A stretch of DNA of 61,501 nucleotides from a virus. The stretch is taken from IMG/VR virus record IMGVR_UViG_3300028007_000002, positions 1-61,501 of that record; one strand, written 5' to 3'. The position numbers were made by a program, and so were the translations under genes. The notes beneath the pieces are model-generated. The model had not been told where the DNA came from and did no database searches. It was given only the letters and a program-made list of their open reading frames with translations. Shown here one piece after another: positions 3,364 to 59,624 of the stretch. Each line of letters opens with the position of its first letter. Position 1 is the stretch's first letter.

Positions 3364-3533
3364 TCCGTTGGAGGCGTCCCATTTCTCACCAGCCGATTGA
3401 CCTGAGATCCGTCGCTAAGCGCGACGGTCACTTGTGCTGCCCTGCCTGTGATCAGTGGACAAGCAAGCTGGTTCTGCTGCGCGACGGACGGATTCTCTGT
3501 GTCCGCTGCGCCGGCCGAAAAGTGGTCTCCTAG
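3360..3533 (+). CDS. Small zinc ribbon protein upstream of the recombinase
   Basis: A 57-residue protein. Two Cys pairs, CPAC (after LC) and CVRC, are 24 residues apart with a beta-hairpin-like segment (KLVLLRDGRILC) between, typical of a zinc ribbon. No Shine-Dalgarno is visible, and the ATG lies inside the conserved repeat CTACCATGG, so the message may be leaderless or nearly so. It ends one base before the recombinase start. Confidence 0.5.
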   Translation: MVRWRRPISHQPIDLRSVAKRDGHLCCPACDQWTSKLVLLRDGRILCVRCAGRKVVS

Positions 3534-3534
3534 A

Positions 3535-37590: not shown

Positions 37591-37626
37591 AAGAAGCCTG
37601 TTCACCCCTGAATGAACAGGCTTCTT
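37591..37626. terminator. Bidirectional terminator between accessory block and CRISPR operon
   Basis: AAGAAGCCTGTTCA (37591-37604), loop CCCCTGAA, TGAACAGGCTTCTT (37613-37626). A perfect 14-base stem between converging transcription units; the last bases of cas6e overlap it. Confidence 0.85.
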
Positions 37627-38309
37627 CAATCACGGGGAATCAGACCGATCGAGAGCAGGCCGAAGCCAAAGGCTTTGCCCGACCCGATGCCCTGACGCAG
37701 CGTGGCGCGGAACCGATCGGCGTCGGTGATAACCAACTCCCCCGCGAAGAGCACCGATCCGAATGTCAGCCGGCCGGGCGAGGCCGGCTTGCCGTCCCCA
37801 GTCTGTTTGATCTCCGGGGTGACGGAGTGTTGGGCGAGCCGGAAGCCGCCGGCCTCGCCCTTACGAATGAGCCAGGCGATCTGTTCGGCCTCGGCGCGAA
37901 ACACGATCCGTTTGCCGTTCCAGCGGCTTGCCTCGACGCGGTTAGCAGGCAGGCGTTTGGTGGGATTGGCACGGAGCCGGAAACGCAGACGATCGCCGGC
38001 CCGAAGGCTCTCCCAATACCCATGGTGCGACTCGACCGCGGGGTTGCGGATCAGCCTGCCGGCCGTATCGGCCAAGTACTCGGACCACAACCGCGACCAA
38101 TCGGGATACACTGCCGATTGAACAATGACGACCAAGCCATCCTCCGGCCACTGATCGACGCGATAGAGTACACCGAGAGTTGCGCGGGCATCCGGATTAA
38201 TCATCTCGGGAAAGGCGCTCAGGATGGTCCGATGAAGTTGTCGGCAATCGGCCAGATCGCGCCGGACATGCGGATCGCTGAGATTGAGGATCAGGCGGGA
38301 CAGATACAT
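37626..38309 (-). CDS. cas6e: CRISPR endoribonuclease Cas6e (CasE)
   Basis: A 227-residue protein with the full Cas6e pattern. MYLSRLILNLSDP at the start; DCRQLHRTILSAFP with His26 at the place of the catalytic His of characterised Cas6e; VLYRVDQ and VIVQSAVYPDW; LRAGDRLRFRLRANPTKR; and the C-terminal glycine loop GIGSGKAFGFGLLSI. Cas6e cuts type I-E pre-crRNA at the repeat hairpin. No other type I-E gene (cse1, cse2, cas5e, cas7e, cas3) is present. It is the last of nine coupled genes, starting in a TGATG overlap with the cas6 gene. Confidence 0.92.
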   Translation of the reverse strand: MYLSRLILNLSDPHVRRDLADCRQLHRTILSAFPEMINPDARATLGVLYRVDQWPEDGLVVIVQSAVYPDWSRLWSEYLADTAGRLIRNPAVESHHGYWESLRAGDRLRFRLRANPTKRLPANRVEASRWNGKRIVFRAEAEQIAWLIRKGEAGGFRLAQHSVTPEIKQTGDGKPASPGRLTFGSVLFAGELVITDADRFRATLRQGIGSGKAFGFGLLSIGLIPRD

Positions 38310-39070
38310 CAGTCCGCCTGCACGGGAAGTATCTGAGGGCAAACAGCGGTAGGACGACGGAGGGGAGCTGGGGTCTCCCACACGCTGACCGGATCGCCTT
38401 CACGCCATCGCTCATACTGTGCGAGGATGCGCAGTCGGCCGTACCCGTAACCGGTCTGATGTCCAACACCGCGATACTCGCCGAACCGAAACAGCGTCCA
38501 GACAATGGCCTGCTGCTCAGGCTCAAGTCGCCAGAGATCAAAGCGCACCAGCCCCAGGAATCCCAATCGTCGCTCTCCGGCGGCCCCAGTCCCCGGACGC
38601 TGCAACAGATCACCGACTGGCGCAACCGCGATGCGGCGCAACGCGACGTCGGGCAGTTCGGGCGTCTCTAGCCAGCCGAGCGCATTCCACCGTAGGGTCA
38701 GACTTCGGTAGATCTTGCTGTACTCGGGAATTAGATGATCGTTGTCGCTGGTCCGAAATCGGGTCGGTGTCGTGAAAGCGATCCAGATCGCTTTGCCGCC
38801 CGCCGGCTGACAGAAATCAGCCATGCGCACCCGTCGAATCAGCCGCGCGGCGGGTTCACCAGACAAGAGCGCCTGGGCGATGTCGTCCTGGCAGGCTATC
38901 ACATCCAAACTGGTTTGCCGTCGAACAACCGAGTAAGGCCGGACTTCATCCGGGTGATGAAGTCGCTGGGCGAGATCGAGATCGACCCGACCAACCGTGG
39001 AAATCACGCGCTCGATCGGGTCAGATTGATAGCCGGGGTAGGGCAGGCGGACAACGGTGATAGCAGTCAT
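38309..39070 (-). CDS. cas6: CRISPR endoribonuclease Cas6
   Basis: A 253-residue protein of the Cas6 family found in type I-A/I-B/I-D and type III systems. The central WIAFTTPTRFR and SLTLRWN elements are typical. The C-terminal domain has LGFLGLVRFDLW and GEYRGVGHQTGYGYGRLRI, the glycine-rich loop. It would cut CRISPR repeat RNA. A second, differently classed Cas6 (Cas6e) directly follows, an arrangement I do not know from any described operon. The catalytic residue cannot be fixed without alignment. Starts in an ATGA overlap with the methyltransferase gene. Confidence 0.85.
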   Translation of the reverse strand: MTAITVVRLPYPGYQSDPIERVISTVGRVDLDLAQRLHHPDEVRPYSVVRRQTSLDVIACQDDIAQALLSGEPAARLIRRVRMADFCQPAGGKAIWIAFTTPTRFRTSDNDHLIPEYSKIYRSLTLRWNALGWLETPELPDVALRRIAVAPVGDLLQRPGTGAAGERRLGFLGLVRFDLWRLEPEQQAIVWTLFRFGEYRGVGHQTGYGYGRLRILAQYERWREGDPVSVWETPAPLRRPTAVCPQILPVQAD

Positions 39071-39873
39071 TCGAGACGCTCCACGGCAAGATCGCGCTGA
39101 GTAGCCAGGTCGAGGGCCCAGGCCACCAACCGAGGATCCCGCTCCATCCCGAAACACCGCAGGCCGATCGACTCAGCGGCAATCAGGCTAGTGCCCGCTC
39201 CGAGATAGGGATCAAGGATGTCCCCCTCACGGTGAGTGTTCTGGATCAGGCAACGGATCCAGTCCTCGGGTTTCTGGTGGGCGTGGATCGCGCGGGCATG
39301 AAACGCCGGGAGCTGCTCGACGTAGAGATCGCTGAGCACATGGCCCGGTGTCTCGTGGCGCGAGGGATATTTCGCGGGATCACCGTAGCGTCCGAAATCA
39401 CGGTAGTCCTCTCGCTGCCCGTACCAAAAACAGAGCTTCATCCGCTGCAACGGCCGCCCCGAGCGCGGCCAGGAGGCGACGCAGTCCCAGACAAAGATCC
39501 AGGCCGGGGCACCGAACAAACGGATCGTGTCACCCGCCCACCGCCCATCGCAAAACGCCAGAATGGTCCGCCATTCCCCGGCGGGCGGGGTCAAACCGGC
39601 CTCCCAAGGAGGATCGAATATCAGCGTGGACGGACACGCATCTCCCAGCAGCCTGGCGACCTGGTGCGGAGCTGTACTGTCACCACACAGCACCCGGTGC
39701 TGGCCGATCCGCCAAACCTGGCCAGGCTCCACCTGCCAGCGCGCTTGAGCGAGGGTGAGAGCGAGATCGCGTCGCGTCTGGGTCTGCGTATTCAGGCGAA
39801 TAATCCCACCTCCGGGAAGCGGGTGAGGAATTGCTGCCAAAGATCGGGATAGTGCAGCTTCAGGTAAGCCCAC
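39067..39873 (-). CDS. DNA methyltransferase (N6-adenine/N4-cytosine, class beta order)
   Basis: A protein of up to 268 residues. Motif IV, FDPPWEAG, precedes motif I, DILDPYLGAGTSLIAAESIG, the order of class beta enzymes; ERDPRLVAWAL follows. The N-terminal WRIGQHRVLCGDS is a common lead-in of phage and plasmid methyltransferases. It probably methylates DNA; the target is unknown and no partner restriction enzyme is seen. It lies inside the CRISPR operon between cysH-like and cas6 genes. The start is unsure: the given one overlaps cysH by 82 bases, and an ATT after GGTGGG near 39801 would remove most of that overlap. Confidence 0.85.
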   Translation of the reverse strand: MGLPEAALSRSLAAIPHPLPGGGIIRLNTQTQTRRDLALTLAQARWQVEPGQVWRIGQHRVLCGDSTAPHQVARLLGDACPSTLIFDPPWEAGLTPPAGEWRTILAFCDGRWAGDTIRLFGAPAWIFVWDCVASWPRSGRPLQRMKLCFWYGQREDYRDFGRYGDPAKYPSRHETPGHVLSDLYVEQLPAFHARAIHAHQKPEDWIRCLIQNTHREGDILDPYLGAGTSLIAAESIGLRCFGMERDPRLVAWALDLATQRDLAVERLE

Positions 39874-40544
39874 CGGCCGTGACGCCGGTTCGTCTCACCG
39901 GCCCAATAGCTGATCCGCCGGTCGCGCGCCGGGCGATCGCCCATCACGTCATAGGCTCGGTTGTAATCCACGTTACGACTGACCAGGTAGGCCCAGATAT
40001 CGTCATGGGTCCAGCGGCCGACCGGCAACGCCTCCCGGATGCCCTCCCGCTGGTTGAAAAACAGCAGGCCCCGCGTTCGGACCAACATCCGGCGGCCGGG
40101 GGATTCGTCGCCACGCAACCCCAATACCACGGCATCGTAGTAGCGCTCTGCCAGCAACCGGCGCACGGGCTCATAGACGGTGCCCCACATCGTCGCGTCC
40201 TCGACGCCCGGTGCATCCGGCCCGCCGGCCGCGGCGAGGATGTCCAAGAAGGGCCGGCAAGGAAACTTCTCGACCGGTCGCCCGGCGGCGATTAGGACAT
40301 CGAGTCGGGCGCGTGATTCGGGGAAGGCGCAGTCGGCATCGAAGTAGATCGCCGGAACCGTGGGCGCCTGCCGCCAGACCAGATCCAGAACGACTTCCGA
40401 ATCCTTCCCGGTCGAGTACCCCACGTAGGGATTCCGGGTATCAGTCAATACCCGCTCAATAACCGCGTTCGCCTCGTCGAGCCGGCGCGCAAAGGCCCGC
40501 GTCCGAGCGTGGGCCAGAAAGCCGGCTCGTTCCAACGGCGTCAT
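39792..40544 (-). CDS. CysH-like PP-loop enzyme (PAPS reductase family)
   Basis: A 250-residue protein. The PP-loop is YVGYSTGKDSEVVLDL near residue 35; IYFDADCAFPES and LGLRGDESPGRR are further family motifs. The Cys of the classic sulphate-assimilating CysH C-terminus (ECGLH) is missing, so simple PAPS reduction is unlikely; ATP pyrophosphatase-type chemistry on a nucleic acid or nucleotide is possible. CysH-like genes are the known companion of type IV-B CRISPR systems, with unknown role. The ATG at 40544 is chosen for its ATGA overlap with the glycosyltransferase gene. Confidence 0.85.
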   Translation of the reverse strand: MTPLERAGFLAHARTRAFARRLDEANAVIERVLTDTRNPYVGYSTGKDSEVVLDLVWRQAPTVPAIYFDADCAFPESRARLDVLIAAGRPVEKFPCRPFLDILAAAGGPDAPGVEDATMWGTVYEPVRRLLAERYYDAVVLGLRGDESPGRRMLVRTRGLLFFNQREGIREALPVGRWTHDDIWAYLVSRNVDYNRAYDVMGDRPARDRRISYWAGETNRRHGRWAYLKLHYPDLWQQFLTRFPEVGLFA

Positions 40545-41155
40545 GACGCGGCCGGGCTCCAGGTCTTCGCCTGTCGCACGTACTGCCCGTAGAGCAGGGG
40601 CGGACAACCAATGACGCTGGGCAGGTCGAGGCGATGCTGGACCAGACTCGGTGACGTCTGCCAGATCGATTCTGACTGGTGGGCCAGAAAGTCTGCCAAG
40701 AGCACGTCCGACCAGTGACGATGTTCAGCGAGATGCGGCTGAATCCACTCGACGAGCCGGTCGGCCAGGTCTCGGGTCAGCGCCACCGCCTGGTCATTAC
40801 AAAATTGGCCGGCCGGCTGCTGCCACCAACGATCACCACGCGCCAGGGCGTCCGCGACCGATCGGCGCTGGGAGTAGAAGCTGACGGCCCGCGCTCCGAG
40901 GTCCTGAGCTTCTCGGAGTCGTGCCACGGCACGGGCCGGGAAATCGTCGCAGAGCAGGATGTCGTCCTGAAGGACTCCCACCCAGGCGGCGCCGGTCTCG
41001 ACGCCAGCCTGCCAGGCCCGCAGCATGGTGACGCGGTTTCCTGCGTGGTCAGTGTCCTCGATGACCCGCAGGCTGGGGATTTGCGCCCGGAGGAACTCGA
41101 CCGACCCGCACCGCTCCGGGACGGCCATCATGACCCAGGCGCACGGGAGGCTCAT
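40541..41155 (-). CDS. Glycosyltransferase-like protein
   Basis: A 204-residue protein. The N-terminal SLPCAWVMMAVPERCGSVE and central AAWVGVLQDDILLCDDFPAR match small phage glycosyltransferase-fold (GT-A) proteins, in which QDDI takes the place of the metal-binding DxD. Substrate unknown; DNA-base or protein glycosylation is possible. It lies inside the type IV operon, coupled on both sides by ATGA overlaps, which I do not know from described type IV loci. Confidence 0.7.
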   Translation of the reverse strand: MSLPCAWVMMAVPERCGSVEFLRAQIPSLRVIEDTDHAGNRVTMLRAWQAGVETGAAWVGVLQDDILLCDDFPARAVARLREAQDLGARAVSFYSQRRSVADALARGDRWWQQPAGQFCNDQAVALTRDLADRLVEWIQPHLAEHRHWSDVLLADFLAHQSESIWQTSPSLVQHRLDLPSVIGCPPLLYGQYVRQAKTWSPAAS

Positions 41156-41904
41156 CTGTCAACCTCCTGCCAGTCTGGGGGCAGCAGGCAGGGGTGATGC
41201 CAGTCGGTCTTCCACACCGGTGGAGTCCAACCACGCGGGGCGATGGCCGCCCCATCCGGGATCGAGGGCATCTCGGAGAGGGCGCCAATGGGCACCGGCC
41301 GCGATCGGAGGATGATCGCTTTGGCCTCTTCGAGTGACATGTTGAGCATCGTTTCGACCTGCCAGTGTCGGACCAAACCCCGGCCGATAGACGCCGCTTT
41401 GCTCACGTGCGTCAGGCGGCGAATCAGATCCATGGCTGTCTCGCGATGCCCGATTGCCAGAGCGGCCAGTGATTTTGTGGCGATCAATGGGATCGCAGTG
41501 CGTCTCTCGGCCCAACGCCCGGTGGAGGTTTGCGCGTTGGGCCGCTCGCAGAGCCAGACCCGGTCGCGTGGGTGGCGTTTGTGCGTGTATTCGATGAAGG
41601 GGTGGAATTTCCCGACCGGCCGCAGATCGCTGGTGGCCCAGAGCGGCAGCCCCTCCGGCGATTGCCAGATCAATTCGATGGGGAGGGGGAAAATTAACCC
41701 CTCGGGCGGAAATTCCGGTTCGACCGGCAACGAGAGTTTGAGCCCCAAGGCCAGCCGCGTATCGAGAGGCACGGCCGGCCCATCGAAGCCCCGCACGTAG
41801 GGGGTTTCCAACGTGCAACTCACGAAAAACGGTTCTTTTGGGAGATCGGCGTACTCCCAGGCTCGCGCTTCGAGGCCGGGGACGATCGCGGCTATCGGGC
41901 GCAT
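41152..41904 (-). CDS. csf3: Type IV Cas5-like protein Csf3
   Basis: A 250-residue protein. The second half has the Csf3 pattern: KSLAALAIGHRETAMDLIRR and LTHVSKAASIGRGLVRHWQV, the glycine-containing loop of the Cas5 group, which holds the 5' crRNA handle. N-terminal FVSCTLETPYVRGFDG is the RAMP-type first strand and loop. The ATG at 41904 overlaps csf2 by 13 bases and has GGAG just upstream; a longer frame from 42069 would lie inside csf2. ATGA overlap with the glycosyltransferase. Confidence 0.85.
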   Translation of the reverse strand: MRPIAAIVPGLEARAWEYADLPKEPFFVSCTLETPYVRGFDGPAVPLDTRLALGLKLSLPVEPEFPPEGLIFPLPIELIWQSPEGLPLWATSDLRPVGKFHPFIEYTHKRHPRDRVWLCERPNAQTSTGRWAERRTAIPLIATKSLAALAIGHRETAMDLIRRLTHVSKAASIGRGLVRHWQVETMLNMSLEEAKAIILRSRPVPIGALSEMPSIPDGAAIAPRGWTPPVWKTDWHHPCLLPPDWQEVDR

Positions 41905-42908
41905 AGCTCCAGACTCGTGCCGAAAGTCCCATCCAACAGTCCCGCTCGCATCTGGTCTTTGTTGCGGGCCAGGTGGGCCAGATAGGGCTCGCTGTCGGGA
42001 AGGTCGGTGCAGAGGATCTGCATCAGGCCACGCCCCTGCCGGCTGCTCCCGCCAAAATAGCGATCCCATTTCTCGATCGCCTTGGCCAGCGCGGCGACCG
42101 TGACGGGGGACGTCTGCTGATCGAGGGTGAACCGCACGACGAATTTCACCCCCGAGGCGAGCGCCTCGTAGCTGTAGAGCATCTGGTTTCCGGATGATTC
42201 CGCGCCGGTCCCGCGGGTTCGGGTCTCTTCGTACAGGCAGTTGCGGATCCGTAGTCGGCGGGCTTCTTCCAGCAGGTCTTGCCCGAGAAACTGGCTGGCT
42301 GGCTGGAGGTAGGAAAAGTGCTGAAGGGTCCCGAGGTACTCCTGAGTGATCGGGAATATGTTGACCTTGAGGCGGCCGGCCGGCAGCATGAAGCGATCGA
42401 CCGAACCACCCAGGAGGTCAATGCTGGGATACCTGCTGCGAACCAATCGCCCCAGGGAATCCCGGCTGGTTGGCGCGATTTTACCTGCCGCGATTGCGCC
42501 GCCCGAGTAGAGCAGGTTCAGGGTCGCCTGCGACAATTGGCCTTCTTGGGCATAGAGCAGATCGGTTGCCGGTGAAAGCGCCGCCTGGACGCCGGCCGGC
42601 AAGGCGCCCCCTGCAAGGTCCAGCGTCTCGATCAGGTGATCGGCAAGGGGCCGACGAACTGCAACGGCCCGGAAGGCATTCTCGGAGAGCGTGGGGTAGC
42701 GCGGCGGATCCGTCCGGGTTGCATCGGTTTGGTCGGCCAACGGACGCCGCAGGAATAACGTTTTGTTCGTGCTGGTGTTGAGGCCGACCACGGTGTCACC
42801 GTGAACGATCGGCGACAGGTTTTGCAGGATCAGGTGGTAGCGCAGGCCGTAGGGTTCGGCGATGAGAATGCGCGACTGGCTCGGGGCCATCATCAGGGTG
42901 GCGGTCAT
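41892..42908 (-). CDS. csf2: Type IV Cas7-like protein Csf2
   Basis: A 338-residue backbone subunit. It begins with a RAMP-type strand (YHLILQNLSPIVHGD), and the centre has LSENAFRAVAVRRPLADHLI and NLLYSGGAI, which are typical of Csf2. The C-terminal QTSPVTVAALAKAIEKWDRY and FGGSSRQGRGLM complete the fold. It would polymerise along RNA. GGAGGAAACCG stands before the ATG. Confidence 0.88.
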   Translation of the reverse strand: MTATLMMAPSQSRILIAEPYGLRYHLILQNLSPIVHGDTVVGLNTSTNKTLFLRRPLADQTDATRTDPPRYPTLSENAFRAVAVRRPLADHLIETLDLAGGALPAGVQAALSPATDLLYAQEGQLSQATLNLLYSGGAIAAGKIAPTSRDSLGRLVRSRYPSIDLLGGSVDRFMLPAGRLKVNIFPITQEYLGTLQHFSYLQPASQFLGQDLLEEARRLRIRNCLYEETRTRGTGAESSGNQMLYSYEALASGVKFVVRFTLDQQTSPVTVAALAKAIEKWDRYFGGSSRQGRGLMQILCTDLPDSEPYLAHLARNKDQMRAGLLDGTFGTSLELCAR

Positions 42909-42941
42909 CGGTTTCCTCCGGTCGGCGTCATCAGTGCAGTC

Positions 42942-43358
42942 TCAAGCGAGGATTTGTGATGGCTCAGGCTGGGCGCCACGTTTGCGGTGATGCTGCTGGC
43001 GAGCAATTTGGACGAGGCTGGCCGATCGCTGGATGATCGTTTGGATTGCCTCCGCCCCATTCGGTTGACTCCAGAGCTTAATCAGGGGACCGTCTGCCGT
43101 CAGAGGAGGGCAGGGCCATCCCATTGCTTGGAGCAATCGTGACCAGAACTCCATCAAGGTGTCTGACTGATTGGCGCATTCGTACGCCTTCTCGCTGAGT
43201 GATTCATACCGCCCGACGCCCGACAGCAGACCGAAGCTCCCCGGACTGTAGATGTCCAAAGCGATCGTGAGGATATCGACAGCGAGGCGTTGCCCAGGGG
43301 TGGCCTGAGCCATCAACTCGTCGATCGCCGCGTAGAGTTCCGCGTTGGGATCATTCAC
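42942..43358 (-). CDS. cas11: Type IV small subunit, Cas11-like
   Basis: A 138-residue all-helical protein between csf1 and csf2, the place of Cas11 in type IV-B operons. The GTG at 43358 has GAGAGGAG upstream and overlaps the csf1 stop. Sequence alone (LYAAIDELMAQATPGQRLAV, AEAIQTIIQRSASLVQIARQ) is not diagnostic; the assignment rests on order, size and helical nature. Confidence 0.7.
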   Translation of the reverse strand: MNDPNAELYAAIDELMAQATPGQRLAVDILTIALDIYSPGSFGLLSGVGRYESLSEKAYECANQSDTLMEFWSRLLQAMGWPCPPLTADGPLIKLWSQPNGAEAIQTIIQRSASLVQIARQQHHRKRGAQPEPSQILA

Positions 43359-44040
43359 TGGCTGTCTCCTCTCGGGATGTGGCAATCAAGGCTGGCAGAA
43401 AGGCCGGATCTCGGCGGAGCCCCCTCAGGTCACTTTCGAGGGCGTAGGCAATAGCGGGTGCCTTCTCAAACGACTTGTGGCGGCCGAGATCCCTGGCGAT
43501 CGTGCGTTTGCTGAAGCCCAGTGCCAACGCTTCACCAATCGTCTGTCCAATGTCGAGCGCTCGGCGGGCAGAGAAACTGACCCAGAACCCGGCGTTGTAT
43601 TCCGGCGTGTTGAGGAAAAGCCCAAAGGCGCCGGCCGTCGAGACGTGCGTCTTGGTCCAAAGGCGTGGCTTCGGATCGGTGGTGAGGACGCCGGTCGTGG
43701 GGGTGAGGAGATCGGCGTCCGCAACGCGCTGAAACATCTCAGACCATTGAGGACGATGGGGTTGGGCAGGATCGGCCTTGATCAGGGGCCAGAATAGGTT
43801 ATTGCCGAGCGCCAGAACGGCCCGGTTCTTCTGTTTGGGCTGCGTATACATCCACGCGCAGGCCGGGCAACTCTGCGTCGTTACCTTCGGATCGCCTAGC
43901 GGGTGGCTCGCCCGCTCCGTAACCACGATGTGGCAGGTGCCGCATTTACCGGGACTTGGCTCCAGCGGCCACTCGGCCGCTGGGCATCCCGCCGCCCGCC
44001 AGATCAGCCAAGAGCTCGCGAGGTGGTAGTTTGCGTCCAT
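43351..44040 (-). CDS. csf1: Type IV signature protein Csf1
   Basis: A 229-residue protein with the Csf1 zinc finger near residues 32-62 (KCGTC, then SCPACAWMY) and LALGNNLFWPLIKADP. A helical C-terminal half follows. Csf1 is the large-subunit-like component of type IV complexes. The ATG at 44040 gives the natural start; an upstream frame from 44076 runs through the promoter. First gene of the nine-gene operon. Confidence 0.85.
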   Translation of the reverse strand: MDANYHLASSWLIWRAAGCPAAEWPLEPSPGKCGTCHIVVTERASHPLGDPKVTTQSCPACAWMYTQPKQKNRAVLALGNNLFWPLIKADPAQPHRPQWSEMFQRVADADLLTPTTGVLTTDPKPRLWTKTHVSTAGAFGLFLNTPEYNAGFWVSFSARRALDIGQTIGEALALGFSKRTIARDLGRHKSFEKAPAIAYALESDLRGLRRDPAFLPALIATSREETASE

Positions 44041-44144: not shown

Positions 44145-45893
44145 CTAAGCAGTTGGCTGAACAGAGGTGATATCCTGCCGGACGTACCAATACTCACCGA
44201 CCCGAATGGCCTTCAGCCGGCCTTCGGTGACCCTCCGCCAGAGGCGGCCATACCCGATGCCCGTCTGGCGGGCGAGCTCTGGTAGGCTCAGCAGACGGTA
44301 CTGTGTGCTCAGTCGGAACGAATCAATGTGATTGCAGTCATTGCGGTAATACGAAGTGTCCGCAATACCAGTGGAGCTTTCACCGGCCGGCCGCCTAAAT
44401 CGGTAGCGCGGGTTCAAATGGTACTCGCCGCGCCGACTGGGTTCCACGATCACCTTCTCGACCAGCAACTCCATGAGCATCCGCTTGGTCTCCGGCGTGG
44501 CCTTGTCAGCCTTCCCCTGCAACGCGGCGAGGAGTTCAGCCACCCCGCGGATTCGTGCCTTCTCCTCCTCTCGCTGAGCCCGCGCGTTCTCCAAGACCAG
44601 TTTGCGGCCGGCCAGATCATCCCGCTCCCGAGCTGAGGCGATCAGTTGCGCCTCCCCCTCAGCCTCTGAGATGAGCCCCTTCCTAATCAGCGAAATGACA
44701 CGGGAGCGCTCAGCCTCCACCCGCTGGAGTGCCCGGCTCAGGGCATCAAGCTCGGCCTCTCCTTCCGCGCCGGTCAGGTCATTGACCTGCGTCATCAGTT
44801 TCGCGACCAAGTCGCCTGGCCGATCAATCCAGTCCCGAATGTCCGACCAGACGACGTCCTCGACGAGTTCCACCCGGACATCGGGATTCGGACAGCGGTA
44901 CTGACCACACCGGTAGTAGGCGATGTGATTCTGGTTCGTCTGAGTCAGGCCAGAGTACCGCCGACCACAGATACCGCAATCAATCAGGCCGCGCAGGAGG
45001 TACAGCCGCTTGGCGTTCCTTGATGACATTTTCCAGTTCAGCGGGCGCAATTCCTGGGCTCGATCCCACGTCGCCCGATCGAGGATCGCTGGGACCTCCT
45101 GAGTAATGGTCTGTTTGCTCTTACTCTGGCGGCCGATGCGGCGCTCGCCCATATACGTCGGGTTCTTCAACATCATGAGGACCCGTGTGTGATCCCAGTG
45201 GTCTACGAGCTTGATCCGCTTGCTAGTGATCCCTCGCCGGGTGCTTTGTGTCGCCACTCCCAATGCATTCAGCCGCTCAGCGATGGCATAGGCGCTGAGC
45301 CGCTCTTCGTTGTACCAACGGAAGATCTGCCGAACGATCTCCGCCTCTTCTTCATCAATGACTAACTTCTGATCAAGGACCCGATAACCGAGGGGAGCCC
45401 GACCTCCTGTCCAGTATCCCTCCCGGGCCTTTCGCCGACGGCCAAGGCTGGAGCGCTGGACGATAGAGTCGCGCTCATAGGCGGCCACCATGGCCAAGAT
45501 GCCCATGACGAACTCGCCGAAAGGATTGCTCGTGTCAAAGGGTTCCGTGAGGCTCCGAAATGCAACGCCGCAGCGTTTGAGTGCATCGTGGGCCGACAGG
45601 ATAATCATGCCCGTTCGGCCGATGCGGTCCAGTCGGTAGACGACCACCTGCTCGAACTGGCCCGCCTTGGCATCGGCGAGGATGCGGGCGCCGGCCGGCC
45701 TCTGCTCGATGGGAATCGTGCCGGGAACGCCGTCGTCGAGGTATGTCCCGACGATCGTCATCCCGAGTGCAGGGCAGATCGCATTGGCCGCTTCGATCTG
45801 GTTCTGGATCGACTCACGTTCGATCTGATCTTCGGACGAGACGCGGGCATAGAGAGCCACCCGCGGGGATGCGGGTGGTGATACACTGGACAC
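44145..45893 (-). CDS. Large serine recombinase with C-terminal excisionase-like domain
   Basis: A 582-residue protein. Residues 10-150: resolvase catalytic domain with YARVSSEDQ (nucleophilic Ser), VYRLDRIGR and AYERDSIVQRSS. Residues 170-290: recombinase domain (GRAPLGYRVLDQKLVIDEEE, NPTYMGERRIG). Zinc ribbon: LIDCGICGRRY then YRCGQYRCP. Coiled coil near 390-460. Unusual C-terminus: residues 530-580 (LSLPELARQTGIGYGRLWRR, GRLKAIRVGEYWYV) are a MerR/HTH_17-type excisionase-like DNA-binding domain. It may integrate the phage, and its own fused domain may control direction. AGGAGG lies seven bases before the GTG start. Confidence 0.9.
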   Translation of the reverse strand: MSSVSPPASPRVALYARVSSEDQIERESIQNQIEAANAICPALGMTIVGTYLDDGVPGTIPIEQRPAGARILADAKAGQFEQVVVYRLDRIGRTGMIILSAHDALKRCGVAFRSLTEPFDTSNPFGEFVMGILAMVAAYERDSIVQRSSLGRRRKAREGYWTGGRAPLGYRVLDQKLVIDEEEAEIVRQIFRWYNEERLSAYAIAERLNALGVATQSTRRGITSKRIKLVDHWDHTRVLMMLKNPTYMGERRIGRQSKSKQTITQEVPAILDRATWDRAQELRPLNWKMSSRNAKRLYLLRGLIDCGICGRRYSGLTQTNQNHIAYYRCGQYRCPNPDVRVELVEDVVWSDIRDWIDRPGDLVAKLMTQVNDLTGAEGEAELDALSRALQRVEAERSRVISLIRKGLISEAEGEAQLIASARERDDLAGRKLVLENARAQREEEKARIRGVAELLAALQGKADKATPETKRMLMELLVEKVIVEPSRRGEYHLNPRYRFRRPAGESSTGIADTSYYRNDCNHIDSFRLSTQYRLLSLPELARQTGIGYGRLWRRVTEGRLKAIRVGEYWYVRQDITSVQPTA

Positions 45894-46221: not shown

Positions 46222-46968
46222 TCAGCACGCGCCCCATAGACCGGCCCCATTCGCCCGAGCCTCGGCTTGTGCCGTGCGATAGAGCCCCTGCCGTTGATAG
46301 GCTATGCGGAACGTGTATTCCCGCGCCTGCCCCTCCCGGATCATCCATTCACCGACGTCCCACCAGCCGAAACTCGGGTCTTCATGCCAGAGATAGCGCA
46401 GTAGTCGGCCATAGGCGTCCCGATCGTCCTGCGTGAAATCCCTCTCGATCCAGACCCATTCGCCCTGCACCCAGTTCTGGAGAGTCGCCGCGGACTCGAG
46501 CGCGTAGCATTGCCGGGGACTGAGTTCCGGCGTGTTGATGCCAACAATCCGCACCCGCTCGGTAGCCCCTGACGGATAGAGCGACACGTCAACCGTGTCG
46601 CCGTCGATGACGCGCGTCACCATCGCCCAGCCATCAGGGACAGATGCGGCAGCGGCCGGCCTTGGTGTCGCAGTTGCGGCCGGTCGGGGAGTCGCCGTGG
46701 CAGCCGGCTGGGCCGGTTGAGAGGGCGAGCTCGACCGATTGACCGGAGTCGGATCGCAGGGGCATCGATTGGACTCGCACGCGATGCCGTCTCGGTCGGC
46801 ATCAAGGTTGGCCAGCCCCACCGGGTCAGCGCGATAGGCAGCCTGCGCTGCTGCTTGGCTTGAGAACGACGAACAGGTGACACGCTGGGCGTCGACGACT
46901 TGGGATGGGCTATAGACCGGCATCAGGACGATGGCCAGCGTGAAAAGGGCAATGATGAGTCGGCGCAT
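46222..46968 (-). CDS. Secreted thermonuclease with Excalibur domain
   Basis: A 248-residue protein. Residues 1-28: signal peptide (RRLIIALFTLAIVLMPVYS). Residues 33-72: Excalibur calcium-binding domain ending in NLDADRDGIACES. Residues 78-105: linker with repeated PAATATPRPAA. Residues 112-245: staphylococcal nuclease fold with VIDGDTVDV, RIVGINTPEL, DRDAYGRLLRYLW and YRTAQAEARANGAGLW. It would digest extracellular DNA or RNA and probably serves the lysogen (a moron gene), for example as nutrient or competitor-DNA scavenger or against superinfecting DNA. The start at 46968 has GAGGAA seven bases upstream. Confidence 0.88.
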   Translation of the reverse strand: MRRLIIALFTLAIVLMPVYSPSQVVDAQRVTCSSFSSQAAAQAAYRADPVGLANLDADRDGIACESNRCPCDPTPVNRSSSPSQPAQPAATATPRPAATATPRPAAAASVPDGWAMVTRVIDGDTVDVSLYPSGATERVRIVGINTPELSPRQCYALESAATLQNWVQGEWVWIERDFTQDDRDAYGRLLRYLWHEDPSFGWWDVGEWMIREGQAREYTFRIAYQRQGLYRTAQAEARANGAGLWGAC

Positions 46969-47004
46969 GATGTTCTTCCTCATGGTTGATGGGGTACTGG
47001 GTAC

Positions 47005-51268: not shown

Positions 51269-51997
51269 ATGAACGACGTCAAGGCTTTGACGGAGGCGCT
51301 GTCAAAGCCCTTCCCGAAAGAGGCGATCAAGAAACGCGAGGGGGCTCGCGGGAAAATGCTCGACTACGTTGAGACGCACACGGTTATCCACCGGCTGATT
51401 GAGGCGACCGATAACCAGTGGTCGCTGTCCGTCAATCGGCTGGAAAAGCAGGGCAACGTCCTGGTGGCGGTGGTCGAGCTAACGATTCCGGGGCTGGGCA
51501 CCCGGAGTCACATCGGCGTCCAAGCGGTGGCCGAGAAGAGTGGCGAGGATTTGATCAAAGGCGCGATCAGTGACGGCCTTAAGAAGGCCGCCACATTATT
51601 CGGCGTTGGCCTGGAGCTTTACGGTCCGGACTACGAGGGAATAGCCGAGTCCAAAAGTGCCGCCACCACTCCGGCCCGACCCGCTCCGGCTCCGCCGAGC
51701 GCCCCTCCCGTCAACCCCCCGGCCCAGAATGGGCACACGCCCTCGGGCAAGGGATCGGCGCTCGCCGGAAATACGCTTGATGACGTCTTCGGCCCGTCGC
51801 CGAATACACTGATCCAGCGTGATCAGGCGATCGAGATCTGCGACCTGCTTAAAGAGACTGGCGCGAACGTCGAGTCGTTCAAGAGGCATTTCGGGATCCC
51901 CGCGATTGAGGACCTGACCATTGAGCAGTATCCCGAAGCTCGTCGAATGCTCCTGACGAAAGCGGCCAAACTGGCTCAGAACAGGACAGGACGCTGA
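51269..51997 (+). CDS. Single-strand annealing protein (Rad52/22-like)
   Basis: A 242-residue protein. The N-terminal 120 residues hold ALSKPFPKEAIKKREGARGK, LDYVETHTVIHRLIEATDNQ and GEDLIKGAISDGLKKAATLF, GVGLELYG: the core of Rad52-type recombinases, which anneal complementary single strands. The middle is Pro/Ala-rich linker, and the C-terminal 70 residues (DQAIEICDLLKETGANVESF) form a helical domain often fused in phage annealing proteins. AGAGGAAGG before the ATG; coupled to the helicase by TGATG. Confidence 0.88.
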   Translation: MNDVKALTEALSKPFPKEAIKKREGARGKMLDYVETHTVIHRLIEATDNQWSLSVNRLEKQGNVLVAVVELTIPGLGTRSHIGVQAVAEKSGEDLIKGAISDGLKKAATLFGVGLELYGPDYEGIAESKSAATTPARPAPAPPSAPPVNPPAQNGHTPSGKGSALAGNTLDDVFGPSPNTLIQRDQAIEICDLLKETGANVESFKRHFGIPAIEDLTIEQYPEARRMLLTKAAKLAQNRTGR

Positions 51998-54378
51998 TGA
52001 CCACTGAGAGCAGCGCTCCAACCCTCGGCACTGCGATCCGACTTCTGGCCGGCCGCTGTGATTGGGCGAATAGCCTCGACGGCGCTGGGTTCAACGCCGC
52101 TGACGCCGCTTTTGGGCACAGCCTCGCAGGGCAGGCGGAAGAGGAGTGGTCACCGAAGAAACGGCGGGCCGCCTGGAAGATGCTCCGAAAATACCGCGGC
52201 CAGTTGAGCGGGGCCGGCATCAACTTCGATGCGATCCCGGAACCGCCCGAATCAGACCCAAGCCATCACCTGGCAATCGTTCCAAAGACGCTGGCACCGA
52301 TCGCGCCAGCGTCACCACCGATAGTTGCGGCATTCACGCCGCAACTGACGATCCGGGGAATTCTCGGACCCGGCGGTGTCATTGCCCGACAGCTCCCCGG
52401 CTACGAGTGCCGCGATCCCCAGATCCAGATGGCCGAGCTGGTCGAGGCGGCGATCGCTAAGAGTCGGCATGCGGCCATCGAGGCGGGCACGGGTACAGGT
52501 AAGAGCCTCGGCTACCTGGTGCCAGCCATTCTGAGTGGTCAGCGGACCGTGTGTAGCACCGCCGACAAAGCCCTTCAAGTGCAGATCTGGGCGAAGGACA
52601 TTCCGTTCCTCCAGTCGGTCTTGCCCCAGCCATTCCGGGCAGCCATCCTGAAGGGCCGATCGAACTATCTCTGCCTCCATCGTTTCGCGGAGATGAGCGA
52701 CCAACTGTCGGGATCCCTGCCAGGGATGGCCGACGTGGCACTTTTCAAGAGCACCGACGCGGCACTGGCCTGGCCCGAGGTGGTCACCTGGGCGGCCGAG
52801 ACGAACACCGGGGATCTGGAGACAGCGCCCTTCGCGGTGCCCCTCGACCTCTGGTCGGATCTGACGGTGGACTCGGATTCATGCCTCGGCAAACGCTGTC
52901 CGCAGTTCGGGAACTGCTGGGTCGAGAAGGCCAAGACCAAAGCCAGTGAGGCTGAGGTGATCATCGTGAATCACGCTCTCCTGCTACGGGATCTGGAACT
53001 CCGCTTCCAGACCGACGGCCACGCCAGCGTCCTGCCAGATGACGTCTCAGTCATCGTCCTCGATGAGGCGCACCATCTGGAGGACATCGCAACGAACGCG
53101 TTCGGCGTTGAGATCAGTCTCGGCCGATGGACGCGGATAGCCCGCCGGATTGAGAACCTGACGGTCAAGCACAAAGCGGTCAAGGGGCAGCCAAGCGGGA
53201 CCGAGGACCAGGACGAGGCCGAGAAATGGAGCCTCAAAGCCGGTGCGGTTCAGTCCCAGATGGAGAGCCTGTTCGGGGCAATTCAGGATCGCTTCGCTGA
53301 GTCTCGGTCGGCGTCGATGATCCTGAGGGATGAGCGTCCGATCGCGAACGCGGCGCTTCAGGCCCTCCGATTCTTTACGGAAGAGATCAAAGGTGGCGCG
53401 CTCCACTGGCTGACACCTGACCAGCAGACCAGTTGGGGGAAGCTCGGCGACCAGACCGATCGGCTGACGGGTCACCTTGAGTGGGTCGTGACACCGGGCA
53501 CCGAGGATGTGTTGGTGCGCTTCGCGGAGTTGAGTAACGGCCGGATCGTTCTGCACGCGAAGCCGATCGACGTATCTGACCTTCTTGCGGAGCGGCTTTT
53601 CGAGGTGTTCCCAACGGTGATCGCCACCTCGGCCACCATTGCGACCGACGCCGGCATGGCCTACTGGCGGTCGCGGGTAGGGCTTGAGCAGGTCGACGAA
53701 CTAATTGTGTCCAGTCCATTCGACTACCGTCGCGCGGCGCTGATCTATCTCCCTCAGGATGGACAGAGCTTTGATCCGAGCCGCTTCCGGCAGGAGGGCA
53801 GCATCGAGTACGTCGAGCGCCTGGCCGGCGAGATCGAGCGCCTCCTGCTAGCGTCAGACGGTCGAGCCTTCGTCTTGTTCACCAGCTTCCGTATCCTGCG
53901 GGATGTCTACGATCGGCTGGCTCCACGGCTCCGGTGGACCTTGCTCCGGCAAGGTGATCTACCGCGTCCCGAACTGGTTCGGCGATTCCGCGAGGACACC
54001 CATAGCGTCCTCTTCGGGGTCAAATCGTTCTGGGAAGGCGTCGATGTGCAAGGCGAGGCGTTGAGCCTCGTGATCATCGACAAACTGCCCTTCACGCCAC
54101 CAGACGATCCGATCTGGGCGGCTCGCTGTGACGCGGTGAACCGCGCGGCCAATGATCGCTGGGCCTGGTTCAACCAGCTTGCCATCCCGGTCGCCACCAT
54201 CGCCCTCAAACAGGGTTTTGGTCGGCTGATTCGCACCAAGACCGATCGGGGCGTGGTGGCCATTTTGGATGGCCGGCTGACCACGAAACCCTACGGCCGA
54301 CGCATCGTGAGGAGCCTACCGCCGGCGACGGTGACGCGCAGTCTCGACGCGGTGCGCGCTTTTTTTGGGGCGTCATGA
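51997..54378 (+). CDS. DinG-like iron-sulphur helicase
   Basis: A 793-residue superfamily 2 helicase. Walker A AIEAGTGTGKSLGYLVPAIL near residue 165; four cysteines of the XPD/DinG iron-sulphur domain (YLCLH, then DSCLGKRCPQFGNCW near 295); DEAHHLED near 355; SATIATDAG, FTSFRILRDVY; and the C-terminal GVKSFWEGVDVQGEALSLVI and QGFGRLIRTKTDRGVVAILD. It unwinds DNA 5' to 3'. The first 110 residues are an extra N-terminal region. It belongs to the replication/recombination operon, but DinG-type helicases are also components of type IV-A CRISPR, and this genome encodes a type IV operon. Confidence 0.9.
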   Translation: MTTESSAPTLGTAIRLLAGRCDWANSLDGAGFNAADAAFGHSLAGQAEEEWSPKKRRAAWKMLRKYRGQLSGAGINFDAIPEPPESDPSHHLAIVPKTLAPIAPASPPIVAAFTPQLTIRGILGPGGVIARQLPGYECRDPQIQMAELVEAAIAKSRHAAIEAGTGTGKSLGYLVPAILSGQRTVCSTADKALQVQIWAKDIPFLQSVLPQPFRAAILKGRSNYLCLHRFAEMSDQLSGSLPGMADVALFKSTDAALAWPEVVTWAAETNTGDLETAPFAVPLDLWSDLTVDSDSCLGKRCPQFGNCWVEKAKTKASEAEVIIVNHALLLRDLELRFQTDGHASVLPDDVSVIVLDEAHHLEDIATNAFGVEISLGRWTRIARRIENLTVKHKAVKGQPSGTEDQDEAEKWSLKAGAVQSQMESLFGAIQDRFAESRSASMILRDERPIANAALQALRFFTEEIKGGALHWLTPDQQTSWGKLGDQTDRLTGHLEWVVTPGTEDVLVRFAELSNGRIVLHAKPIDVSDLLAERLFEVFPTVIATSATIATDAGMAYWRSRVGLEQVDELIVSSPFDYRRAALIYLPQDGQSFDPSRFRQEGSIEYVERLAGEIERLLLASDGRAFVLFTSFRILRDVYDRLAPRLRWTLLRQGDLPRPELVRRFREDTHSVLFGVKSFWEGVDVQGEALSLVIIDKLPFTPPDDPIWAARCDAVNRAANDRWAWFNQLAIPVATIALKQGFGRLIRTKTDRGVVAILDGRLTTKPYGRRIVRSLPPATVTRSLDAVRAFFGAS

Positions 54379-54553: not shown

Positions 54554-55063
54554 ATGGCACGCAAGCGCGACATTGATCCCCGGCTCTGGGAGAACGAGCA
54601 GCTCGCTGATGTCAGCCGTGACGCTCGGCTGCTCTTCATCGCCTGCATCAACTTCGCGGACGACGAGGGCCGGCTCAAAGGCAGCGCGCGGTATCTGCGG
54701 GCTCAAGCCTTCCGCTACGACGTCGATGTCACCGAAACGATGGTGGCTGAGTGGCGTGACGCGTTGATTGCGGCCGGAGTGCTCAGCCTCCACGACCACG
54801 ATGGCGCTCCCCAGCTTCAGATTGTCGATTGGCGTTCTTTGACTCGCCCAGAAAGGCATCCAGTTCGGCGCCATTGGGACAACATCGCCCGCCGAGTACG
54901 CCCAACCATATTGGCGAGAGATGGTTACCACTGCGCTTTGTGCGGGGCACCCGCGCCTCTGGAAGTCGATCACATCGTCGCGATTGCTAAGGGCGGCTCC
55001 AATGACCTCGCTAATCTGCGAACTCTTTGTTTGCCTTGCAATCGGCGCAAGGGAGCGGACTAA
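54554..55063 (+). CDS. Replication-type winged-helix protein fused to HNH nuclease
   Basis: A 169-residue protein. Residues 1-95 (ARKRDIDPRLWENEQLADVS, ARLLFIACINFADDEGRLKG) match the N-terminal domain of phage replication initiation proteins encoded before helicase loaders. Residues 115-169 hold an HNH domain: CALCGAPAPLEVDHIVAIAK, GGSNDLANLRTLC, CNRRKG. The fusion probably arose by insertion of an HNH gene, because the following gene has a similar N-terminal domain plus a normal C-terminus. TAATG overlap with that gene. Confidence 0.82.
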   Translation: MARKRDIDPRLWENEQLADVSRDARLLFIACINFADDEGRLKGSARYLRAQAFRYDVDVTETMVAEWRDALIAAGVLSLHDHDGAPQLQIVDWRSLTRPERHPVRRHWDNIARRVRPTILARDGYHCALCGAPAPLEVDHIVAIAKGGSNDLANLRTLCLPCNRRKGAD

Positions 55064-57294: not shown

Positions 57295-57351
57295 ATGCAA
57301 GTCCAGATTACCCGATCCGAGGCGACCTCGCGCGAGCACCCGACATGGTGA
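57295..57351 (+). CDS. Possible 18-residue leader peptide
   Basis: An ATG with a strong GAGGAGA site five bases before it opens an 18-codon frame that ends (ACATGGTGA) across the start codon of the following gene. The following gene has no clear ribosome binding site of its own, so the short frame may couple its translation. Confidence 0.4.
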   Translation: MQVQITRSEATSREHPTW

Positions 57352-59624
57352 GCAATCGCCTTGACGATACCTACCGCGCCTTTCTGGCCAGAAAACGCGT
57401 CCAGGCTCAACCCGTCGGATTCACGGTGGATCGCAGCGCATTGAATCCAGCCCTATTCGACTGGCAGCGGGATATCGTGGAGTGGGCGATTCGACGTGGC
57501 CGGGCTGCTCTGTTTCTCGATTGCGGTCTCGGCAAAACGCTGATCCAACTTGAGTGGGCGCGGCACATCGTGGCTCAGGTCGATCGGCCGGCGCTGATAT
57601 TGGCGCCGTTGGCCGTGGCCCAGCAGACCGCTCGTGAGGGTGACAAGTTCGGCATTCAGGTCACGGTTTGCCGGACACAGGCCGACATTCGGCACGGCAT
57701 CAATATCGCCAACTACGAAATGCTCCAGCATTTCGACCCGTCCGGATTCGGAGCGTTGGTTTTAGATGAATCATCGATCCTGAAATCTTACGACGGGCCA
57801 ACTCGTAAGGCGATCACGGAGTTTGGCCGGTCGATTCCGTTCCGACTTGCCTGCACGGCCACGCCCGCGCCGAACGACTTGATGGAACTGAGCAATCACG
57901 CCGAGTTCCTCGACATCATGACCGGCAAGGAAATGATGGCCCTGTTTTTCACTCAGGACGGGAACTCCACTCACCAGTGGCGACTCAAGGGCCATGCTCG
58001 GCAGGACTTCTGGCGGTGGATGGCATCATGGTCGGTTGCCATGCGCAAGCCATCGGATATCGGCTATCCGGACGCCGATTTCATTCTGCCACCGCTCCAC
58101 ATGCATCAGGTGACGGTGGGCGTCAGTCAGCCGACGGCAACGCTTTTCCCAGTCGAGGCACTGACGCTTCAAGAGCGACAGCAGGCCCGGCGCGAAAGCA
58201 TCAGCGATCGCGTGGCAGCGACAGCGAACCTCATCAACAACTCGCCTGAGCAATGGCTGGTCTGGTGCAACCTGAACGCGGAATCCGAGGCGTTGGCAAA
58301 GGCGATTCTCGGTGCGGTGGAGGTGACCGGCTCTGACACGATTGCCCACAAAGAGCAGGCGTTGCTTGATTTCGTATCCGGGCGGGCACGCGTGCTGGTG
58401 AGCAAGAGCACGATCTTTGGGTTTGGCCTGAATCTCCAGAACTGCGCCAATGTGGCGTTCGTTGGCCTCTCCGATTCCTACGAGCAACTCTATCAGGCGA
58501 TCCGGCGCTGCTGGCGATTTGGGCAGACCCGGCCGGTCAACGTGTACCTGATTACCGCTGAGACGGAGGGTGCGGTTGTGAAGAATATCGCGCGAAAAGA
58601 GCGACAATCTGCCGAGATGTTTGACCAGATTACGGCCAATATGGCGGGGCTTCAACTCTCCTCGGCCGAACGGTCGGAGATGGCCTACGAGGAATCAGTC
58701 GCCTACGGAAAAGGGTGGACTCTCTATCTCGGCGACAGCGTCCAACAGTTGTCCAATGTGGCGAGTGAGACAGTTGGATTGTCTGTGTTCTCGCCGCCCT
58801 TTCCCGGCATGTACGCCTACACGAATTCTCCACATGACATGGGCAATGTGCGCGGGATTGAGGAATTGATCGAGCAGTACAGCTACCTGATCCCGGAACT
58901 GCTCCGCGTGACCATGCCCGGCCGGTCGGCTTGTGTCCACCTGACACAGGCAGTCGCGTTCAAAGGCACTGACGGCTATATCGGCCTCAAGGATTTTCGC
59001 GGTGCCGTGATTCGGGCGATGGAGGCCGGCGGCTGGATTTATTACGGCGAGGTCTGCATCGACAAAAACCCGCAGGTGAAGGCGATTCGAACGAAAGACC
59101 GCGGCCTGTTGTTCAAAACGCTGGCTAATGATTCCAGTCACATGCACATGGCACTGGCTGATTACCTGCTGCAATTCCGCAAGCCGGGCGATAATCCGCA
59201 GCCAATCCGGGCCGGGATCAGCACGAAATATCAAAACGAGTCCGGCTGGATTACCGCCGATGAATGGATCGAATGGGCGGCTCCGGTCTGGTATCGGGCC
59301 GATGCCGGCATTCCGGGTGGAATCCGGGAAACTGACGTGCTCAACGTGGTGCAGGCCCGTGAAACGGATGACGAACGCCACCTCTGCCCGCTGCAACTAG
59401 GCGTGATTGAGCGGGCGATCAAACTCTGGAGCAATCCGGGCGATTTAGTTCTTGATCCCTTTGCGGGCATCGGCTCAACCGGCTTTGAGGCTCTGAAGCA
59501 CGGCCGACGGTTTGTCGGGTGTGAACTAAAACCGTCGTACTTCCGGTCAGCTTGCATCAACCTCGACCGGGCAGTGTTTGAGCGCAATCAGCCAACCCTC
59601 TTTGACGTGGCGGCGGGATCATGA
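57345..59624 (+). CDS. SNF2-like helicase fused to DNA methyltransferase
   Basis: A 759-residue two-part protein. Residues 35-440: SF2/SNF2-type helicase with FLDCGLGKTLIQLEWARHIV (Walker A), LVLDESSIL (motif II, DESS), LACTATPAPND (motif III) and YQAIRRCWRFGQTRPVNVYL (motif VI). Residues 450-755: N6/N4 methyltransferase with LYLGDS, VFSPPFPGMY (motif IV, SPPF) and LVLDPFAGIGSTGFEALKHG (motif I). The order IV before I is class beta. The fusion would couple DNA translocation with modification; it may protect phage DNA or act in replication. No nuclease domain is visible. Confidence 0.88.
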   Translation: MVSNRLDDTYRAFLARKRVQAQPVGFTVDRSALNPALFDWQRDIVEWAIRRGRAALFLDCGLGKTLIQLEWARHIVAQVDRPALILAPLAVAQQTAREGDKFGIQVTVCRTQADIRHGINIANYEMLQHFDPSGFGALVLDESSILKSYDGPTRKAITEFGRSIPFRLACTATPAPNDLMELSNHAEFLDIMTGKEMMALFFTQDGNSTHQWRLKGHARQDFWRWMASWSVAMRKPSDIGYPDADFILPPLHMHQVTVGVSQPTATLFPVEALTLQERQQARRESISDRVAATANLINNSPEQWLVWCNLNAESEALAKAILGAVEVTGSDTIAHKEQALLDFVSGRARVLVSKSTIFGFGLNLQNCANVAFVGLSDSYEQLYQAIRRCWRFGQTRPVNVYLITAETEGAVVKNIARKERQSAEMFDQITANMAGLQLSSAERSEMAYEESVAYGKGWTLYLGDSVQQLSNVASETVGLSVFSPPFPGMYAYTNSPHDMGNVRGIEELIEQYSYLIPELLRVTMPGRSACVHLTQAVAFKGTDGYIGLKDFRGAVIRAMEAGGWIYYGEVCIDKNPQVKAIRTKDRGLLFKTLANDSSHMHMALADYLLQFRKPGDNPQPIRAGISTKYQNESGWITADEWIEWAAPVWYRADAGIPGGIRETDVLNVVQARETDDERHLCPLQLGVIERAIKLWSNPGDLVLDPFAGIGSTGFEALKHGRRFVGCELKPSYFRSACINLDRAVFERNQPTLFDVAAGS

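Follow-up and report, generated by a model that had tools for sequence, protein, structure and literature searches.

A nine-gene operon on a phage contig

The 61,501-base stretch of DNA analyzed here, referred to as the window, is IMG/VR virus record IMGVR_UViG_3300028007_000002. Its minus strand carries, from 44040 to 37626, an operon of nine genes with intact frames and no internal stops: a CRISPR (clustered regularly interspaced short palindromic repeats) type IV-B core of csf1, cas11, csf2, csf3 and a cysH-like gene, with genes for a glycosyltransferase (GT), a DNA methyltransferase (MTase), Cas6 and Cas6e (Table 1). The contig is clearly that of a bacterial virus (phage), with PHROG matches for terminase, portal, major head, major tail, tape measure and integrase, and with recombination and replication genes. 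At 0.636, the G+C content of the operon is the same as in the structural genes (0.635), so there is no sign that the operon arrived recently.

An earlier note on this DNA had described nine coupled genes, two of them encoding Cas6 proteins, joined almost throughout by ATGA or TGATG overlaps and without gaps. The nine intact frames and the Pfam and TIGR matches bear out the gene content, and the account of the junctions proves slightly overstated. Four of the eight are of the kind described (ATGA at csf3/GT, GT/cysH and MTase/cas6; TGATG at cas6/cas6e), three are longer overlaps (8 nt at csf1/cas11, 13 nt at csf2/csf3, and cysH/MTase), and a single gap, of 33 nt, separates cas11 from csf2. The hairpin that follows cas6e is probably a two-way terminator. 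It was also considered as a solo CRISPR repeat, an assignment rejected in view of its position between convergent genes.

Table 1. Positions of the operon genes and of other features discussed in the text
Feature	Record	Position	Strand	Basis or remark
csf1 (Cas8-like large subunit, 229 aa)	window	43351..44040	-	two CxxC pairs
cas11 (small subunit, 138 aa, GTG start)	window	42942..43358	-	profile built without the window
csf2 (Cas7 backbone, 338 aa)	window	41892..42908	-	PADLOC, plasmid profile, PDB
csf3 (Cas5-like, 250 aa)	window	41152..41904	-	PADLOC, plasmid profile
GT-A-fold glycosyltransferase (204 aa)	window	40541..41155	-	PHROG, AlphaFold2/Foldseek
cysH-like (CasCysH-type, 250 aa)	window	39792..40544	-	Pfam, plasmid profile; PP motif STGKDS
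N4/N6 DNA methyltransferase	window	at most 39067..39873	-	Pfam, motifs; start uncertain
cas6 (253 aa)	window	38309..39070	-	PF10040; His and glycine-rich loop
cas6e (227 aa), type I-E pre-crRNA endoribonuclease family	window	37626..38309	-	PF08798, TIGR01907
16-bp-stem hairpin	window	37591..37626	.	fold z -4.33, between convergent genes
Tyrosine integrase	window	3448-4506
Large serine recombinase	window	44145-45893	-	HTH_17-like C-terminal end
Secreted-looking protein	window	46222-46983	-	Excalibur and staphylococcal-nuclease-type
DinG/YoaA-type helicase	window	51997-54378	+	PADLOC typeIV_DinG 1.6e-128
HNH gene	window	54554-55063	+	directly after the helicase gene
SNF2-like helicase fused to N4/N6 DNA methyltransferase	window	57345-59624	+
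Csf2 with inserted Cas11-like region	L010	8270-9706
Csf2 with inserted Cas11-like region	L013	1372-2766
Csf2 with inserted Cas11-like region	L017	894-2363
Csf2 with inserted Cas11-like region	L064	8150-9361
Mini-CRISPR array	L028	13365-13583		four repeats
csf operon with cas6	L097	2739-7764		plasmid pGMOR1

The type IV-B core

Reference profiles were built from actinobacterial plasmid IV-B genes only (five loci, L108-L112) and iterated for three rounds, with other phage loci added and the window never in training. The plasmid profiles match the window directly in csf2 (2.4e-10), csf3 (6.5e-7) and cysH (4e-23), whereas csf1 (7e-18) and cas11 (8.3e-7) are reached only by iteration, with the three-round profiles. 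A later plasmid-derived profile, also trained without the window, matches csf2 at 2.6e-43. PADLOC models recover Csf2 (4.1e-25), Csf3 (1.5e-19) and, weakly, Csf1 (E 0.007), and none matches cas11 in the window. The CxxC pairs of Csf1 lie at residues 33 and 58.

In comparisons with the PDB, the Csf2 family profile A5 finds the IV-B Csf2 of 7jhy as its best match (6e-76), followed by Cas7c of 11fs (1.4e-37) and IV-A Csf2 (1e-19 or weaker), and the Cas11 family profile A6 reaches 1.4e-27 against the Cas11 subunit in the solved 7jhy complex (IV-B). A5 includes the window, and the plasmid IV-B sequences contained in both profiles make them lean toward IV-B. No Cas7 was found in the PDB with the window Csf2 alone or with a two-sequence profile of the window and L019. 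The window CysH matches Pfam PAPS_reduct at 3.6e-13 and is nearer to plasmid IV-B CysH (best E 5e-17) than to phage phosphoadenosine phosphosulfate (PAPS) reductases (best E 8e-8). Its sole cysteines are Cys72 and Cys96. Similar to CasCysH, which is described as missing the C-terminal catalytic Cys (PMC8175902), it has none near the C-terminus.

Thus the window contains csf1, cas11 and csf3 alongside a Csf2 (Cas7) of the IV-B group and a CysH-like ancillary protein of the IV-B kind, and the five predicted proteins are assigned as a true type IV-B core, the gene order being that of IV-B. A phage-borne core in this order with an adjoining CysH is what the earlier note had proposed, and PHROG matches and window-free profiles, which find all five genes, confirm it. 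In the profile search of all nine operon proteins that the note had suggested, the Csf1-3 profiles match, Csf1 firmly only by iteration.

Distribution of phage-borne IV-B loci

Relatives were collected by scanning viral contigs with CysH and Csf2, and iterated profiles were used to define csf2/csf3 loci. As a single-protein query against viral contigs, CysH worked, whereas Csf2 and Cas6e gave no matches; a tblastn search of phages with Csf2 also gave none. The resulting 43 loci with csf2 or csf3 come from the window, 31 further virus records, a contig of a Ktedonobacterales (Chloroflexota) metagenome-assembled genome and 10 plasmids; in 40 of them, the csf genes have a CysH gene nearby. Four more virus records with csf genes were added later, giving at least 35 besides the window, some of the loci being near-copies. 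Phage-borne IV-B is broad: with 35 further virus records, the type is widespread in phages and has repeatedly gathered GT, MTase and Cas6 genes.

In the Csf2 tree, the window groups with L019, L133, L135 and L136 (100/97), and this clade is nested in a set of eight that adds L010, L013 and the Ktedonobacterales contig L017 (100/99). The closest core relatives of the window have the five core genes alone, and the extra genes of the window are therefore additions to a five-gene core.

Variation within the core was also observed. In four loci (Table 1), a Cas11-like helical region lies inside the Csf2 reading frame, between the N-terminal part and the xISxNxxR motif, and there is no separate cas11 gene. 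Since the AlphaFold model of the L010 protein is poor (predicted local distance difference test score, pLDDT, 52.7), this insertion is read from sequence alone. A haloarchaeal IV-B-like csf locus on a Natrinema thermotolerans plasmid (L003) has three CysH-type genes, one of them annotated DUF3440.

Cas6 and Cas6e

The window Cas6 matches PF10040 (CRISPR_Cas6) at 1.5e-13, above the cut-off, as well as generic Cas6 models and PADLOC Cas6_6_IVD (6e-6), and its His and Gly-rich loop are conserved in all four sequences compared (the window and three relatives). Its one close relative, 53% identical, is the Cas6 of phage locus L028. Three records in a set of 36 relatives score above the PF10040 cut-off, namely L028, L011 and L002, a Thermoanaerobacterium plasmid. 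In the Gloeobacter plasmid locus L097, the Cas6 falls in a different Pfam family (PF09559). On the Csf2 tree, four separate changes are required to account for the four loci with Cas6 (three from phages and one from a plasmid), a pattern to be expected were Cas6 of recurrent use to IV-B modules. Because the Cas6 proteins of the window and L028 are 53% identical but their Csf2 proteins fall in different clades, cas6 or csf genes have moved between modules.

The window Cas6e belongs to the type I-E family and is a predicted pre-CRISPR RNA (pre-crRNA) endoribonuclease, with matches to PF08798 (1.7e-52), TIGR01907 (88.5 bits against a cut-off of 45.2) and Thermus thermophilus Cse3 (4.9e-27). The catalytic His and the Gly-rich loop are kept; where T. 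thermophilus Cse3 has its Tyr, the window protein has an Arg, at a position that also varies among chromosomal I-E enzymes. PF08798 is found in none of the 36 related records. Matches to the window Cas6e occur in 31 of 400 Chloroflexota genomes at 1e-10 or better, the best at 53% identity, and the best plasmid match is at 39%. In nine of 12 Chloroflexota loci fetched, I-E-type repeats lie beside the Cas6e gene.

Glycosyltransferase and methyltransferase

The window GT matches phrog_854 (glucosyltransferase, 3.7e-12) and no Pfam family, and contains conserved DD and P..xxH motifs. Its AlphaFold2 model (pLDDT 83.9) finds GT-A enzymes in the PDB with Foldseek (best E 1.6e-7). A GT-profile gene lies near cysH in seven of the 43 loci, no more than 232 nt away in six and one gene apart in L084; in L013, a family 2 glycosyltransferase is located between cysH and csf3. 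The placement of GT beside CysH is weakly enriched in IV-B (7/37 loci versus 3/58 csf-less viral loci, Fisher p 0.04), in a sample of loci of unequal length that includes near-copies. The MTase matches Pfam N6_N4_Mtase at 5.3e-8 and has DPPW and YLGAG motifs, and MTase genes are also found inside the csf operons of L012 and L084. Neither Cas6e nor a glycosyltransferase is described for any IV-B operon in the literature searched, which did not include the main type IV surveys.

CRISPR arrays, other cas genes and the DinG-type helicase

No array was found in the window, a possibly incomplete contig, by searches for direct and tandem repeats, a period scan, or queries with the L028 repeat and three I-E repeats. 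Profiles for Cas1, the Cas3 core and Csm1-type Cas10 have no match in the record; the record-wide scans did not extend to cas2, HD or further Cas10 families. The earlier remark that array, cas1, cas2, cas3, cas10 and HD nuclease are all missing therefore stands for the array, cas1, cas3 and Csm1-type cas10.

The absence of DinG that the earlier note implied requires correction, since the phage does encode a DinG-family helicase, though outside the operon. The DinG/YoaA-type gene is 8 kb away, is followed directly by an HNH gene and adjoins a single-strand annealing gene, and among 39 records searched such a helicase is present in the window alone. An assignment as CasDinG was rejected: the model that finds it also matches in Escherichia coli and Bacillus subtilis, and among its named relatives the best are helicases of phages and of the DinG and YoaA kinds. 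The helicase is probably replicative, and could conceivably act in trans with the Csf complex.

An array is present in L028 (IMGVR_UViG_3300044960_000873), a phage contig with portal, terminase and endolysin genes. It lies ~500 bp downstream of cas6 and has four repeats of ~30 nt with a period of 61. The repeat resembles those of type I-E. Against nine Chloroflexota I-E repeats, 0 to 12 of 2000 shuffles were as good for eight, a resemblance beyond composition for those eight, and 384 of 2000 were as good for the ninth, which does not stand out. The repeat is in no other viral contig, and in the other Cas6 phage, G007, no array was found in the 60,000 of 60,396 bases scanned. What we take to be an IS605/TnpB-like gene seems to lie beyond the L028 array on the other strand.

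Likely host and neighboring genes

Of 400 Chloroflexota genomes, four match the window portal protein at 1e-20, and the best full-length match is 39% identical; identity to Streptomyces phages is 35%. A Chloroflexota host is favored by Cas6e and by the L017 relative, as a lead only.

Just upstream of csf1 and on the same strand, there is a large serine recombinase gene, additional to the tyrosine integrase gene elsewhere in the window. It could be a mobility gene of the csf cassette; no flanking repeats were seen in the direct-repeat search of the window. Beyond it lies the gene for the secreted-looking nuclease-type protein, and the SNF2-like helicase-methyltransferase fusion is encoded on the opposite strand (Table 1).

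A proposed guide-using variant and its alternatives

In published descriptions, IV-B complexes come with neither an array nor a processing enzyme and may function without recognizing targets (PMC8175902, PMC11656645). The sequences themselves establish an IV-B core in a phage setting, two Cas6 families that keep the catalytic His, and an I-E-like array beside the L028 Cas6. From these, a phage-borne IV-B variant that uses guide RNAs and is nuclease-free is given a probability of about one half. In such a system, Csf1, Csf2, Csf3 and Cas11 would form an RNA-binding complex, and the phage Cas6 and Cas6e would cut repeat-containing RNA into guides. With no array in the window, the most likely source of these is host repeats of the type I-E style. 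We infer that the complex, once loaded, would silence host or rival-element DNA by binding to matching sequences, without a CRISPR nuclease, and that CysH, GT and MTase may be accessory nucleic-acid-modifying proteins. Guides from host arrays are plausible because Cas6e is 53% identical to a Chloroflexota I-E Cas6e beside arrays and because the L028 array is I-E-like. Host crRNAs can be bound by CRISPR-associated transposons through Cas6 (PMC11656645). Together, the Cas6 pair and the L028 array suggest that IV-B complexes can be RNA-guided after all.

Several observations weigh against guide use. The single IV-B complex that has been purified carried a heterogeneous set of small RNAs and not the co-expressed I-E crRNAs (PMC8175902). 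Neither an array nor a leader nor a lone I-E-like repeat was found in the window. The L028 spacers have no convincing match in phages or plasmids. Among 33 virus records (three without csf genes), PF10040 exceeds the cut-off in just L028 and L011, and no Cas6 occurs in the loci of the closest core relatives of the window.

The main rival, tentative and clearly less probable, shares the step in which Cas6 proteins act on host repeats: Cas6e and Cas6 would process host pre-crRNA, and the Csf complex would soak up the crRNAs as a counter-defense sponge, starving type I-E (and other) interference with no target recognition required. The array-less window and a Cas6e of the host I-E kind are in keeping with this, as is the report of an IV-B complex whose binding of small RNA showed no apparent preference for sequence, for which sponging was proposed (PMC8175902). 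A sponge, however, leaves no role for CysH, GT and MTase and does not need the array that the sister Cas6 locus L028 possesses, though a decoy array could serve one. Those three enzymes are given a place by an RNA-guided modifying machine, in which a crRNA-led Csf complex would direct CysH, GT and MTase to mark or inactivate DNA or RNA without cutting. This possibility is doubtful; if true, it would provide a function for IV-B and a reason for the recurrence of CysH, GT and MTase in phage IV-B operons.

It is about as unlikely that the locus is an ordinary array-less IV-B module in which Cas6 and Cas6e are passengers from recombination with no role in the complex. The five-gene loci of the closest core relatives and the lack of Cas6e in all 36 related records fit passengers, but cas6 and cas6e are tightly overlapped at the operon end, both proteins keep catalytic and loop residues, and Cas6 recurs in scattered IV-B loci, including the Gloeobacter plasmid locus. 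Marginally less credible still is a modification cassette in which CysH, GT and MTase act on phage DNA or another substrate and Csf and Cas6 are linked to them only through shared selection of defense genes. A GT of the same family does lie near a PAPS-reductase-like gene in the csf-less phage loci L045 and L092, and these phages often carry genes for MTase and ParB-MTase; against this stand the greater similarity of the window CysH to plasmid IV-B CysH and the near-constant company that CysH keeps with csf genes. Whether IV-B uses guides can be tested directly in the phage loci that combine an IV-B core with Cas6 or Cas6e, in one case together with an array of I-E-like repeats.

Comparison with known systems

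The 2025 classification recognizes three type IV subtypes and draws IV-B loci without arrays (PMC12669027); background was also taken from PMC10910872, PMC13232261 and PMC9071438. Similar to the window, subtype IV-A uses Cas6/Cas6e with a Csf complex, and the window phage has a DinG-family helicase. Unlike IV-A, the window has Csf2 and CysH of the IV-B kind, no csf5-type Cas6 with an array, and no helicase among the nine genes, its own being on the other strand. For IV-C, in which a Cas10-like large subunit replaces Csf1, the comparison covered Csf1, which is present in the window, and the Csm1-type Cas10 profile, which has no match. With type I-E it shares Cas6e but not Cas3 or Cas1.

The phage locus L028 resembles the window in csf1, csf2, cas11, csf3, cysH, GT and the closest Cas6, and differs in its own mini-array, the lack of Cas6e and the clade of its Csf2. 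The Gloeobacter morelensis plasmid pGMOR1 (L097) likewise has a csf core, cysH and Cas6 in an operon and no array seen, in a 12.7-kb stretch; its Cas6 is of PF09559, a cupin gene lies beside cysH, and there is no GT. Fuxivirus IV-B of Bathyarchaeia viruses is also virus-borne with CysH, but has a two-repeat mini-array and an archaeal virus as carrier, and cas6 is unmentioned in the main text (PMC10848311).

The actinobacterial plasmid systems (Rhodococcus jostii RHA1 pRHL3; Mycobacterium sp. JS623, 7jhy) share with the window csf1-cas11-csf2-csf3, a CysH-like gene and the lack of an array and of adaptation genes (for the window, from searches for arrays and Cas1). In loci L108-L112, CysH is divergent from csf in four and in the operon, as in the window, in one. 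No Cas6 is annotated in the stretches fetched, whereas the window adds Cas6, Cas6e, GT and MTase and is phage-borne. As described in PMC8175902, IV-B has neither an array nor a crRNA-processing enzyme; the window contains Cas6 and Cas6e nonetheless, and is therefore called a variant. The earlier note had entertained both a new subtype and a variant. The former does not hold for the core, as 35 other virus records have csf genes of the same group and a viral IV-B is published (Fuxivirus, PMC10848311). The latter is supported by the neighborhood comparison that the note had called for, in which the added set is found whole in no other record examined. The window is a variant of IV-B, not a new subtype, and its novelty is the presence of Cas6, Cas6e, GT and MTase in one operon.

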